A program made the translations under genes and the position numbers. This document shows positions 13,443-17,396 of a DNA stretch of 64,000 nt, piece by piece. Position 1 is the stretch's first letter; each line of letters starts with the position of its first letter. The notes under the pieces were generated by a model. It saw nothing but the letters and a program-made list of their open reading frames with translations. It searched no databases and was not told the DNA's origin. Source of the DNA: Candidatus Thiodiazotropha sp. (ex Monitilora ramsayi) (GTDB lineage Bacteria > Pseudomonadota > Gammaproteobacteria > Chromatiales > Chromatiaceae); contig JAHXIO010000005.1 of the NCBI GenBank assembly GCA_025655595.1, positions 682,001 to 746,000 on the forward strand. Direction: 5' to 3'.

Positions 13443-13513
13443 GTGCTGAGTTAAATATGGTAGTGTTCGGTTGAGAATTACTAATCTGATAACAATTGCC
13501 AAGGAGCGGCGAT

Positions 13514-14065
13514 ATGTCGAACTACAGGCGTGCCCCGGTCGCGGGCGGGACCTATTTCTTTACGGTGATGACTTTTCGGCGACGGCCCTTATTTGTAGCG
13601 CCGTTGGCTCGGCGGTGTTTGCGTGAGGCAATGGTGGAGGTACACCGGAAGCGGCCTTTTGTGATGCGGGGTATCTGTCTATTGCCGGATCATTTGCATG
13701 CGATTTGGACGCTACCGCTGGAGGATGAAGATTTCTCTATGCGTTGGAGTCGGGTGAAGGGTTTGTTTTCGAGGTATTTCCTTGAAGGTGGTGGTAAGGG
13801 CGCATTGATCAACGGTTCGAGAATTCGGCGGCGTGAGGTTGGGATTTGGCAGCGTCGGTTTTGGGAGCATACGATTCGGAATGAGTTGGATTTTAAGCGT
13901 CATCTCGATTACATCCACTTCAATCCGGTGAAGCATGGGTTGGTTGGGCGTGTGGCGGATTGGCCCTGGTCGTTGTTTCATCGGTTTGTGCGGGAGGGGA
14001 TCTATACCATGGATTGGGGAGGAGATGCGGGGTTGCGTGAGGATTGGCGGTCGGTGGGGGAGTGA
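13514..14065 (+). CDS. REP-associated tyrosine transposase (RAYT, Y1 family)
   Basis: This 183-residue Y1/HUH single-strand transposase starts YRRAPVAGGTYFFTVMTF, typical of the TnpA_REP family. It has the metal-binding HUH motif in LLPDHLHAIW and the nucleophile Tyr in DYIHFNPVKHGLV. ATG 13514 was chosen because AAGGAG lies seven bases before it. The gene is flanked on both sides by inverted pairs of the same REP hairpin, the arrangement expected if this enzyme binds and spreads those REPs. The frame is intact, so it may still be active. RAYTs are usually single-copy and domesticated rather than self-mobile. Confidence 0.92.
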   Translation: MSNYRRAPVAGGTYFFTVMTFRRRPLFVAPLARRCLREAMVEVHRKRPFVMRGICLLPDHLHAIWTLPLEDEDFSMRWSRVKGLFSRYFLEGGGKGALINGSRIRRREVGIWQRRFWEHTIRNELDFKRHLDYIHFNPVKHGLVGRVADWPWSLFHRFVREGIYTMDWGGDAGLREDWRSVGE

Positions 14066-14187: not shown

Positions 14188-14889
14188 TCAATCCTTCATG
14201 GAGATGGCATGGGTCTCTTCGATGTATGCCTTCTCCGCCTCGGTCAGCTCCACGTTGTCGTAACCGCTGATCATGGTCTTGATGTAATGGGTCGGCGTCT
14301 TGCCGGTGGTGGTCATGTAGATATGGATGATGACGAAGGTCCCCATCAGGTAGGCCGCCGCGGTGTGCACGAAGGCGATCAGGGTCAGGCCCTGGTTGGA
14401 CCAGTCGTAGCCGCTCCAGAAGTCGTAGAGCAGATAGATGATGCCCGAGGACCAGAGCGCCGGTCCGATCAGCAGCATGAAGCTCATGTAGGCCAGCGAC
14501 TGCAGGGCGTTCTGTTTACGCTGCAGGCCTTTCTTGTAGGGGTGCGGCTCGCCCACCAGGATGCCGTAGGCGTAAAAACGGATCACCTTTATGACCCCCT
14601 CTTTGAAGAGGTACTGGCGCCACTGTCCGGTGGTGAAGTTCCAGAAGGTGGTGAAGATCCACAACACGATCAGGGCCAGTGCCGCGTAGGTGTGGATGGT
14701 GACCGCCAAGTGAAAGTCCATCCAGTCATGCAGACCGTGCAGACCCAGGCCGGTGTAGAAGAGGGTGAAGATCAGCAGCGCCTGGGACCAGTGCCAGAAA
14801 CGCTCGTAGCGGGAGTAGATCATCACATAGTGCTTCTCGCCCTTCTGCCTGACCTTTGTGCCGTCGCCGTTGTTCGCTTGTCTATTCAT
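14188..14889 (-). CDS. Cytochrome b561-type membrane subunit partnered with the octaheme cytochrome
   Basis: This 233-residue integral membrane protein has about four or five transmembrane helices and histidines spaced as haem ligands (FWHWSQALLIFTL, HTYAALALIVLW, AFVHTAAAYLMGTFVIIHIY). It belongs to the cytochrome b561/Ni-hydrogenase b-type superfamily that passes electrons between the quinone pool and periplasmic partners. ATG 14889 overlaps the stop of the octaheme cytochrome gene as ATGA, giving translational coupling and marking the two as one complex. It probably links quinol to the octaheme protein. Direction of flow is not shown by sequence. Confidence 0.88.
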   Translation of the reverse strand: MNRQANNGDGTKVRQKGEKHYVMIYSRYERFWHWSQALLIFTLFYTGLGLHGLHDWMDFHLAVTIHTYAALALIVLWIFTTFWNFTTGQWRQYLFKEGVIKVIRFYAYGILVGEPHPYKKGLQRKQNALQSLAYMSFMLLIGPALWSSGIIYLLYDFWSGYDWSNQGLTLIAFVHTAAAYLMGTFVIIHIYMTTTGKTPTHYIKTMISGYDNVELTEAEKAYIEETHAISMKD

Positions 14890-16589
14890 GATGTGTCCCC
14901 CTGCCGGTTTTTCCTGCTGAAGAGCTTGCGCAGCAGTCCATGCAGCAACACGCCGATCAGTGCGCCGGCCAGCGCGAGATAACCCAGGATATCGAGCCAG
15001 CGGAAGCTGTCCCGGCCCGGCATGTAGAAGCCTTCGAGATCGTTCAGCCGGCCCTCGCGGCTGTGGCACTCGTTGCAGGCGAGGGCGTCCTCACTGGGCG
15101 CCACCATGTGGGTGATGGGCCAGAAGGAGTAGGTCTCGACGAAATCGTATTCGCCGCTGTAGGGGATGTTGTTTCTCTGCATGCCGACCTTGATGGCGCG
15201 GCCGAAGTCGTAGTTGCCCCAGTAGGCGTCTTCATCGTCGCCCCACAGATGCATATAGACCAGAGTGTTGTTGCCCTTGTCGTAGGGCTGCACCGTGTGC
15301 ATGCGTTTGAAGGGCCAGATGCGGGAACGGCCGTCGTCGTGGGTGCCTTTGTAGCCGTTGATCTCCACGGGTCCCTTGGCAGGATCGAATGTTGTGTCGA
15401 TGGTGGTGTAGATCATCTGCCCGTCGAACCAGTCGTAGTGGGGCACCAGGTTCTCGCCATATTCGAAGCTGCCCTTGATCGACTTGTAGGTCGCCCGGTG
15501 TGCGCCGTTGCCCTGGGTGTAGTGCTTCTCCTTGAAGCCCTCGCCGTTCTTGGTCCTGCCGGCGGTGCGCCAGTCCCAATCGGTCTTGGTGGCGACGCCG
15601 CCGCGGGCGATGGTTGGGATGTGACAGGTCTGACAGGCGATTTTGTCCACATGGCCGTTGAGCTTGATACCCGTTAATTCAGTGTTCGAGTGCGGTGTAT
15701 CGCTGTGGCACGATTCGCAGGTGGCCACGTCGCGGCGTTCGCCGGGCAGGCCGAGTCCCTCGGTGTCGTGGGCCATCACGTTGTAGCGGCTGCCGGCCAA
15801 GAGATGCTGCCGGGTCACATGGCAGGTGGTGCAGGCGAAGTTGAGGCCTTGCGCATCCATGTGCACGTCAAGCTCCCGGTTGGGCGACTTGAGGGAGGAG
15901 TCGAGATCCCCGTGCTTCACCCCGTCGCCGCCACCGCCGTAGAAGTGGCAGGCGCCGCAGTTTTCACGTCCCGGCTTGCCGACGTTCTGCGCCACCTTCT
16001 CCCAGGGGATGGGCTGCTTGCCCTCGAACATCACCGAGCAGGCCTTGTTGCCTGTGCTGTTGGGTGTCTTGTAGTAGGCGCCGGTGCGATCGTGGCAGAC
16101 CAGGCAGTCGATGTTGTCCTGGTTGGTGAAATCGAAATTCTCATCCTTCCAGCCGTAGCCGGCATGGCACTGGGCGCACATGCCCTCGTTGCCCTTGGCA
16201 TTGGTACAGAAGGTGTTGATCAGGGTCTTCTTGCCCAGCTTCTGGCCAGTCTCGGGGTGATCGTATTCCCAGGTCCAGTGGATCGACTGCATGAAATGCC
16301 GGCCCGCTTCGGTATGGCAGGAGAGGCAGGCCTTGGTGACTTCCGGTCCGCTCTCGAACGGGCCTTGCAGCACCTCGAACTTGGTATGGTCGGCGGTGGA
16401 CTCGCCGTCGTCGCGGATACTCGGTTTGGTATCTTCGACGATGCGGAAGTTCATGTCACTGTCGACAGGTGCTTCGTGACTGACAGGGCTATCGCTTGCC
16501 TGCGGGGGTGAAAGGGGGATGGCCAGCAGCAGGGCATACATGCATGCCCTGATACCGGACTTGATGACCAGTAAGCGTTGTAGATGCAT
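14886..16589 (-). CDS. Membrane-anchored octaheme c-type cytochrome (tetrathionate reductase-like family)
   Basis: This protein of about 567 residues has a signal peptide (basic start, hydrophobic YALLLAIPLSPPQA) and eight CXXCH haem sites, beginning near residues 88, 138, 162, 211, 253, 291, 319 and 505. Between the third and fourth sites is KACSVMFEGKQPIPWEK, which resembles the lysine-bearing active-site segment of octaheme tetrathionate reductases; the Lys role is inferred. A C-terminal helix (DILGYLALAGALIGVLLHGLL) anchors it. Relatives can reduce tetrathionate, nitrite or hydroxylamine, so the substrate is open. ATG 16589 is chosen as the start that gives a proper signal peptide. The gene lies behind an FNR box and a long structured leader. 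Confidence 0.88.
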   Translation of the reverse strand: MHLQRLLVIKSGIRACMYALLLAIPLSPPQASDSPVSHEAPVDSDMNFRIVEDTKPSIRDDGESTADHTKFEVLQGPFESGPEVTKACLSCHTEAGRHFMQSIHWTWEYDHPETGQKLGKKTLINTFCTNAKGNEGMCAQCHAGYGWKDENFDFTNQDNIDCLVCHDRTGAYYKTPNSTGNKACSVMFEGKQPIPWEKVAQNVGKPGRENCGACHFYGGGGDGVKHGDLDSSLKSPNRELDVHMDAQGLNFACTTCHVTRQHLLAGSRYNVMAHDTEGLGLPGERRDVATCESCHSDTPHSNTELTGIKLNGHVDKIACQTCHIPTIARGGVATKTDWDWRTAGRTKNGEGFKEKHYTQGNGAHRATYKSIKGSFEYGENLVPHYDWFDGQMIYTTIDTTFDPAKGPVEINGYKGTHDDGRSRIWPFKRMHTVQPYDKGNNTLVYMHLWGDDEDAYWGNYDFGRAIKVGMQRNNIPYSGEYDFVETYSFWPITHMVAPSEDALACNECHSREGRLNDLEGFYMPGRDSFRWLDILGYLALAGALIGVLLHGLLRKLFSRKNRQGDTS

Positions 16590-16737
16590 CGACCTGTCCG
16601 TACTACATGGTGAAGACCGCGACACATAATCTGCTGTAGCCCGGCCTCGTTCCCAATGAAATCAGGGCGATCCGAGTCCCTGATCGTCGCCAGCGTACGA
16701 CGCCCTGTTACTCATGACATTGATAATTCCCAATGGA

Positions 16738-16873
16738 GGTTGCGGGTGAACCCGTGGAAAGGTACCGGCTGTGTGTCATGCCGACAGGAACGGGGTATCT
16801 GCCGTGGCGAAACCAGGGCGACAGACGGTTGATGGCGAAAAACACACAGCCGGCGAGACAGGATTCCGCAACC
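16738..16873 (-). ncRNA. Putative structured leader RNA (nested stems)
   Basis: An outer stem pairs 16738-16745 (GGTTGCGG) with 16866-16873 (CCGCAACC), 8 of 8. Nested inside it, 16765-16776 (CCGGCTGTGTGT) pairs with 16842-16853 (ACACACAGCCGG), 12 of 12. A smaller imperfect hairpin with a CGAAA loop lies in the middle (about 16799-16827). It sits in the predicted leader of the octaheme cytochrome mRNA. I could not match it to cobalamin, TPP, FMN, glycine, SAM, c-di-GMP or molybdenum-cofactor riboswitch consensus. Because stems read on both strands, an sRNA on the plus strand is also possible. Confidence 0.5.
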
Positions 16874-16925
16874 CGCGGAGACGAGGTTGCCGATACCGTC
16901 TAAGGAGCACTATAAGGAGAAAACC

Positions 16926-16946
16926 AAGCGTCGGTCATTGACGCTT
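16926..16946 (-). other. Hairpin at the predicted 5' end of the octaheme cytochrome transcript
   Basis: AAGCGTC and GACGCTT form a perfect 7-base stem with a 7-base loop. On the minus strand it is followed by GGTTTTCT, so it could act as a weak attenuator or a 5' stabilising hairpin. The predicted transcript start is a few bases upstream, at about 16948. Confidence 0.5.
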
Positions 16947-16953
16947 CGCAAAA

Positions 16954-16996
16954 ACAATATGAACTGCAAGTGATTGTCGACATTGATAAAAATCAA
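16954..16996 (-). promoter_or_regulatory. FNR-type promoter of the octaheme cytochrome operon
   Basis: TTGAT-AAAA-ATCAA at 16983-16996 is a perfect match to the FNR/Anr consensus. On the minus strand TATTGT at 16959-16954 is a fair -10, its centre 33 bases from the box centre, as expected for a class II promoter with the activator at about -41.5. The transcript would start near 16948. Confidence 0.7.
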
Positions 16997-17005
16997 TGGA
17001 AATAG

Positions 17006-17041
17006 GTGATGATTGGGTTCTTTGACCCAATTGATCATCAC
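17006..17041 (-). terminator. Stem-loop behind the tautomerase gene
   Basis: GTGATGA plus TTGGGT (17006-17018) pairs with ACCCAA (17025-17030) and, across a 4-base bulge, TCATCAC (17035-17041). It lies just after the stop of the minus-strand gene ending at 17052. No U-run follows, so termination would be weak or factor-assisted. It abuts the FNR box of the octaheme promoter. Confidence 0.5.
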
Positions 17042-17051
17042 GCAATGGATT

Positions 17052-17396
17052 CTAAAAGGTGGCGGAGTTCCAACCCCAGAGATGGCGCTCGGCGTCGCTG
17101 AACTCGATATAGACCCGATCTGCGGGAATCTCCAGTTGAGCGGAGACCAACTCGCAGAGGAAATTGGAGAACTCCGTGGTGCGGTCGCCGGGCAGGCCGA
17201 TGCTCTTCAGCTCCAGATAGGCGAGGGGGGAAGTCTCACCGGCAAAGCTCATATCGGGATTGGTCTCCAGCACCACCATTACATAGCGCTCCGGCTTGCC
17301 GAGCATATTGGCGACGTTCTCGGAAGCAGCCTTCAACAGGGCAGGCCGTTTATCGGTGTCGATATCTTTGTTGGTGGTGATCTTGAGTAACGGCAT
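17052..17396 (-). CDS. MIF-like tautomerase superfamily protein
   Basis: This 114-residue protein starts MPLLKITTN, giving the N-terminal proline that is the catalytic base in MIF/phenylpyruvate tautomerases after removal of Met. The length and the segments YVMVVLETNPDMSFAG and DRVYIEFSDAERHLWGWNSATF are those of the MIF family, including the C-terminal NxxTF. Substrate in bacteria is unknown. It lies three bases after a DUF4124 protein gene, so the two are probably one operon. Confidence 0.88.
   Translation of the reverse strand: MPLLKITTNKDIDTDKRPALLKAASENVANMLGKPERYVMVVLETNPDMSFAGETSPLAYLELKSIGLPGDRTTEFSNFLCELVSAQLEIPADRVYIEFSDAERHLWGWNSATF

Follow-up and report, generated by a model that had tools for sequence, protein, structure and literature searches.

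A probable scar of a lost cydABX operon, carrying two predicted FNR-type promoters, precedes an octaheme cytochrome gene in Candidatus Thiodiazotropha

The locus described here lies within a 64,000-nucleotide stretch of contig JAHXIO010000005.1 from Candidatus Thiodiazotropha sp. (ex Monitilora ramsayi), referred to below as the window, whose coordinates are used throughout. On the minus strand, positions 14886-16589 encode otr, a tetrathionate reductase family octaheme c-type cytochrome, whose product matches TIGR04315 over the full profile with 615.6 bits (cut-off 375), in keeping with the octaheme identity given to this gene in the first-pass annotation. The gene is accompanied by one for a cytochrome b561-type membrane partner (PF01292 by Pfam; 14188-14889, minus strand). 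Directly 3' of this operon, at the place occupied by cydD in intact relatives, a 189-residue open reading frame has been noted (13496-14065, plus strand), which gave no match in a Pfam search and which we take to resemble a REP-associated Y1 transposase. Orthologs of otr (79-100% identity) are present in 16 of the 22 Ca. Thiodiazotropha genomes and absent from six; in the assemblies of G173 (L036) and G192 (L038) the otr match is interrupted by one in-frame stop each. One account of lucinid symbionts (PMC11237559) places an otr, possibly a different copy, next to a soxY copy.

Comparison of the 16 orthologs has revealed a conserved block abutting the otr start codon (16590-16634, minus strand), found at all 16 loci, reading ATGTGTCGCGGTCATnACCGTCATCACGGA in most of them and partly altered in the window. 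An 8-bp hairpin is possible within this block, with no double changes across the orthologs. When covariation was assessed in 14 of the 16 (G195 and G203 were omitted, being identical to G063 there), 80.4% of cells were paired, compared with 80.1% in shuffles, which leaves covariation unsupported beyond sequence conservation. The lack of double changes suggests that the block is perhaps a translation-start element. A repeat element or MITE was also considered as the source of the otr upstream region and was ruled out, as a second copy is absent from its genome.

Further upstream, pattern search of the window detected a perfect FNR box at 16983-16996 (TTGATAAAAATCAA; listed on the minus strand as TTGATTTTTATCAA). 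Two such boxes occur in the window, against 0.15 expected, and genome-wide the pattern is found at 21 places, against one for a reversed control pattern. A -10-like TATTGT can be read at 16954-16959 (minus strand), with a predicted transcription start near 16948, and this putative promoter is designated P1. The earlier description of a perfect TTGAT-N4-ATCAA site followed by a plausible -10 is thus borne out by the sequence. Neither P1 nor the second candidate promoter described below (P2) was listed in a simple sigma-70 consensus scan. The same scan returned a sigma-70-like match within the leader, ATGACC-18-TATAGT at 16938-16909 (minus strand), one being found where 0.5 were expected. Just upstream of the box, following a gene for a MIF-like protein, an inverted repeat (GTGATGAT/ATCATCAC, 17006-17041, with an inner ATTGGGT/ACCCAAT) is present, which is perhaps the terminator of that gene.

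A transcript initiated at P1 would carry a long leader capable of extensive folding. At its predicted 5' end, repeat search located a 7-bp hairpin (16926-16946, minus strand) with the arms AAGCGTC/GACGCTT. A 12-base stem, CCGGCTGTGTGT/ACACACAGCCGG, joins 16765-16776 with 16842-16853, and an 8-base stem, GGTTGCGG/CCGCAACC, joins 16738-16745 with 16866-16873; the latter, long-range pairing is one of two options, as the whole-leader fold pairs GGTTGC locally with an upstream GCAACC. Folding of the minus strand has further delimited a stem II at 16856-16901, with TCTCCGCGG in its apical loop, and a 14-bp stem III, spanning 16764-16854 with arms at 16841-16854 and 16764-16777. Relative to shuffled sequences, the z-scores for folding were -2.44 (16590-16948), -4.71 (16730-16885) and -5.03 (16736-16948). 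The first-pass annotation had described three stems of 7, 12 and 8 bases in a long folded leader that fits no riboswitch consensus, and on these points it was accurate: the stems are where it placed them, folding surpasses that of shuffles, and no Rfam family reached its gathering score in the window, 16560-17060 giving no match at E-values up to 5 either.

The origin of this region becomes apparent when it is compared with relatives in which a cytochrome bd operon is intact. In G197, the gene order is MIF-like gene, FNR box, cydA, cydB, cydX, otr, cytochrome b, cydD and a second ABC gene, the last being taken as cydC because of where it lies and because it matches the second ABC gene in G194. 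The order in G194 is cydA (cut by the contig end)-cydB-cydX-otr-cytb-cydD-cydC, so that in these two of the 22 genus genomes otr is preceded by the end of cydB and then by an intact cydX. The G197 CydX matches TIGR02106 with 52.6 bits (cut-off 31.6). In the window, 16909-17031 (minus strand) shows homology to G197 sequence comprising the promoter of cydA and the early part of its 5' UTR (80% over 123 nt, E 1e-28), including an FNR box that matches the one found before the intact cydA (G197, L120 9242-9255), which makes P1 the presumed former cydA promoter. Closer to otr, 16735-16691 aligns with cydX of G197 (45 nt, E 6e-7) and of G194 (59 nt, E 9e-10), and 16652-16609 aligns with the G197 block just before the otr start. 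Alignment and frame reading place a cydX remnant at 16662-16735 (minus strand), translated as LGIINVMSNRASYAGDDQGLGSP up to a stop codon and preceded by no in-frame start codon. Of the coding sequences of cydA and cydB, nothing recognisable was found in the window genome. Since promoter, leader and cydX are all homologous to parts of the intact operon, the region is shown by this comparison to be a deletion scar of cydABX, with P1 and the early leader homologous to those of cydA; it is probably no purpose-built riboregulator of otr. The leader therefore does not belong to the octaheme gene in its own right, as had been supposed, since, by homology, the box derives from the promoter and the leader from the 5' UTR of the deleted operon.

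The same operon appears in various stages of decay across the genus. Matches to cydB (PF02322) above cut-off occur in two of the 22 genomes, with a fragment in G150, and intermediates are found in G063, which fuses the first 35 cydA codons to cydX, and in G150, which keeps pieces of cydB, cydX and cydD. This patchy distribution is in line with PMC6712303, in which cytochrome bd genes are ascribed mainly to one group of Ctena symbionts; bd oxidase is also mentioned in PMC11059160 and PMC6461927. In a tree of the otr proteins, the cydAB-bearing genomes G194 and G197 fall into separate clades, and the history of cydAB requires three changes by fewest-change counting, or 7-8 losses if regain is disallowed. 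As the former count is only three, cydAB may have been regained through recombination; given the leftovers, we favour loss. In the other genera represented by G003 and G064, the order cydA-cydB-cydX-cydD-cydC is found with no otr in between. An association of cyd genes with otr is also seen outside the genus, as the betaproteobacterium Tibeticola sediminis (L104, 105-5406) has the order cydA-cydB-otr-cytochrome b-cydX.

If the long P1 leader had been a riboregulator, its fold would control otr through a small molecule, haem or translation, and this second level of control had been proposed by the first-pass annotation. Several observations speak for such a function. The fold exceeds shuffles by a wide margin, and the window leader offers two mutually exclusive pairings for GGTTGC. 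In addition, stem III, which has a counterpart at the matching position of the G197 cydA leader, forms 14 of 14 pairs in both genomes, with both-side changes that retain pairing at 8 of the 14 columns (3, 5, 7, 9, 11, 12, 13 and 14). The window genome, G197 and G063 have a common architecture, with stem II occupying about 47-92 nt, and stem III beginning 93-94 nt, downstream of the predicted start. Against this, the leader is homologous to that of cydA, has no Rfam match, and is not consistently present before otr. The perfect distal box precedes otr in the window genome, G007 and G163 and precedes cydA in G197, and it occurs in altered forms in G063, G188 and G173; no box of the searched form lies between the MIF-like gene and otr in G184, G199, G198, G202, G192, G150, G203 and G195. 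It is hence missing from 8 of the 15 assessable loci, where weaker forms may exist, G194 having been left out of the count because its contig ends inside cydA. That the cydA leader extends beyond the genus was also considered and set aside, a box of the searched form being absent from the 30 cydA loci of other genera examined, out of 88 genomes with cydA.

The fold itself also weakens in those relatives that lack cydA. Stem III retains 12 of 14 pairs in G007 and 11 of 14 in each of G063 and G188, and it is unrecognisable in G163. Among 1000 shuffles, the number pairing as well was 0 for the window, 0 for G197, 18 for G007, 126 for G063 and 265 for G188, the 3' arm being taken as the best-pairing stretch of downstream sequence in data and shuffles alike. 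Leader z-scores were -3.54 in G197, -3.43 in G063, -2.14 in G007, -1.83 in G163 and +0.99 in G188. By eye, pairing of the 5' hairpin is kept in G163 and is broken or partial in G007, G188, G197 and G063. A plain sequence alignment of the leaders departs from the fold and was excluded from the pair counts, and the G197 leader gave two chance-level Rfam matches (E 0.22 and 2.9), far below gathering scores. Of the covariation anticipated for homologous leaders, compensatory changes are seen for stem III against G197, and the stem loses pairs in G007, G063 and G188. Taken together, the pairing counts and z-scores suggest that it was probably as part of the cydA leader, represented here by one intact-cydA genome (G197), that the fold came under selection, and that it has mostly faded after cydA loss, persisting mostly as a passenger before otr. 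With the box missing at 8 of 15 loci and the main stem weakened or unrecognisable in four genomes, second-level control of otr by the leader finds little favour and is considered improbable; the complete retention of stem III in the window genome despite the loss of cydA keeps the idea alive at that low probability.

The element common to all loci lies much closer to otr. A promoter-like arrangement at 16734-16692, downstream of 16738, is shared by all 16 of them, and its core is a 20-nt block from the cydX scrap, ATTGGGAATTATCAATGTCA (16715-16734, minus strand), which comparison of the 16 loci showed to be exact in 14 and to differ by one change in G188 and G163. The block is absent from the six genus genomes with no otr ortholog, and it occurs once per genome, an extra match with two mismatches being found only in G150. 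With up to one mismatch, it was recovered from 7 of 188 family genomes, all seven belonging to this genus, and from none of the 178 genomes of other genera. Parsimony placed 6 changes in 22 sites, compared with 347 in 98 flanking sites (3.5 per site), on a tree that joins the window genome to G184 and G199 at a fork left open by the otr tree; none of 100000 random site sets was as low as the block. Counted from TTGGG, the sites unchanged past the block are 30, 31, 36, 37, 40, 41 and 54. Sites 36-41 correspond to the motif TA..CT, kept at all 16 loci and read in the window as a -10-like TACGCT (16692-16697, minus strand), which, with the box centre placed at -41.5, lies at -12 to -7 and is separated by a 17-nt spacer from a -35-like ATGTCA (16715-16720, minus strand); the frozen sites 30, 31, 40 and 54 are not accounted for by a -10. 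Within the block, an FNR-type box, TTGGGAATTATCAA (16720-16733, minus strand), has one perfect half, the other half being TTGGG. In G163 the tyrosine codon contained in TA..CT has become a stop, with TA..CT still unchanged. The arrangement, designated P2, agrees with the sigma-70 consensus at only about 7 of 12 letters. Its layout is compatible with that of a class II FNR-type promoter, for which the start is predicted at 16685 and the leader at about 96 nt. The scrap has remained almost unchanged probably because it now works as the promoter of otr, and we infer that otr lives mainly on P2.

Two other readings of the conserved block need to be weighed. The 20 nt could have been kept for a useful short CydX-like peptide that is still made, rather than for a promoter, since the block encodes LGIINV. 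cydX is intact together with cydAB in 2 of the 16 genomes (G194 and G197), and in a further six lacking cydAB (G150, G195, G203, G184, G199 and G188) the frame is open from an ATG through the block. Moreover, nine of the 16, intact G197 included, share one end point of the frame, 23 codons downstream of where the block begins, which indicates that drift of the C-terminal frame has been mostly through substitution. In the remaining eight genomes, however, cydX is clearly broken: there is no in-frame ATG in the window genome, G198, G202, G192, G007 and G173, and G063, G163 and G173 run into stops after 8-12 codons. These eight still show 4 changes in the 22 block sites against 219 in 98, and none at the TA..CT sites. 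The third positions of codons within the block are frozen across this genus and variable in the intact cydX of other genera. Selection on a peptide is accordingly regarded as very improbable. The block could alternatively be bound by a regulator that does not belong to the CRP/FNR family, or could act in RNA, considering that conservation extends beyond the 14-nt box into TGTCA and that TTGGG departs from TTGAT. This is rather unlikely in view of the dyad CATTG-N8-CAATG contained in the block, its similarity to the region of the distal FNR box in the window (82% identical over 22 nt), its class II spacing to the TA..CT hexamer, and the nature of the two in-box changes, of which one falls in the spacer (G188) and the other gives GTCAA (G163).

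An FNR protein is encoded in the window genome according to profile search (NF008365, 287.4 bits, cut-off 228), and its gene is preceded by a perfect box about 33 nt before the start of its longest open reading frame. The genome also has eight Crp-type matches, and, since TTGGG makes a weak half-site for FNR, P2 could be bound by a different member of the CRP/FNR family. The reading that we consider likely is that the region is a cydABX deletion scar, that otr is served by both P1 and P2, that P2 is the element under selection and that the folded leader is mostly a passenger. Gene order suggests that, in an ancestor of the genus, otr and its cytochrome b gene became placed as a pair between cydX and cydD. 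As homology to an intact relative shows, the window genome later lost cydA and cydB together with the first part of cydX, a deletion that joined the FNR promoter and folded 5' UTR of cydA to a cydX fragment directly before otr. The otr gene would now be read from two promoters, both presumably under an FNR-type activator at low oxygen: the distal P1 (box 16983-16996, start near 16948, leader of about 360 nt), which was not found in about half of the relatives, and the proximal P2, made up of cydX codons that survived (box 16720-16733, -10 at 16692-16697, start near 16685, leader of about 96 nt), which appears to be what selection kept at every locus seen.

This interpretation suggests oxygen control of an octaheme cytochrome in lucinid symbionts and would provide, within one genus and with intermediates, a case of a respiratory gene taking over the regulation of an oxidase lost beside it, in which a promoter embedded in coding sequence has been exposed by decay of that gene. 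It also gives reason for caution, as a long structured leader may be a deletion scar and no riboswitch. In literature titles and abstract openings on bd oxidase, octaheme genes and promoter relics, the arrangement was not described. The balance tilts slightly towards an FNR-type otr promoter set inside cydX codons and kept with TA..CT through 7-8 cydAB losses (if there was no regain) amid drift, together with an undescribed, compensating fold of the cydA leader that some species may transcribe before otr.

The elements of this locus can each be set against a known system. Compared with octaheme tetrathionate reductase (OTR), the window otr shares the full-profile TIGR04315 match and differs in its adjoining b561-type partner gene, its substrate being putative. 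The 5' part of the region is homologous to the FNR promoter, leader and cydX of the gammaproteobacterial cydABX(-DC) operon as found in G197, whereas in this genus otr-cytb lies between cydX and cydD, and the window genome is devoid of cydA and cydB. With regard to the cydA 5' UTR fold of G197 and G063, stems II and III of the window leader are equally far from the predicted start, while the stem letters have been largely replaced. In class II FNR-activated promoters, the box is centred 41.5 before the start and overlaps a weak -35, with the -10 at -12 to -7. Relative to its predicted start, P2 shares the box centre, the weak -35 overlap and the -10 position of such promoters, and it departs from them in having the half-site TTGGG in place of TTGAT and in lying inside the codons of another gene.
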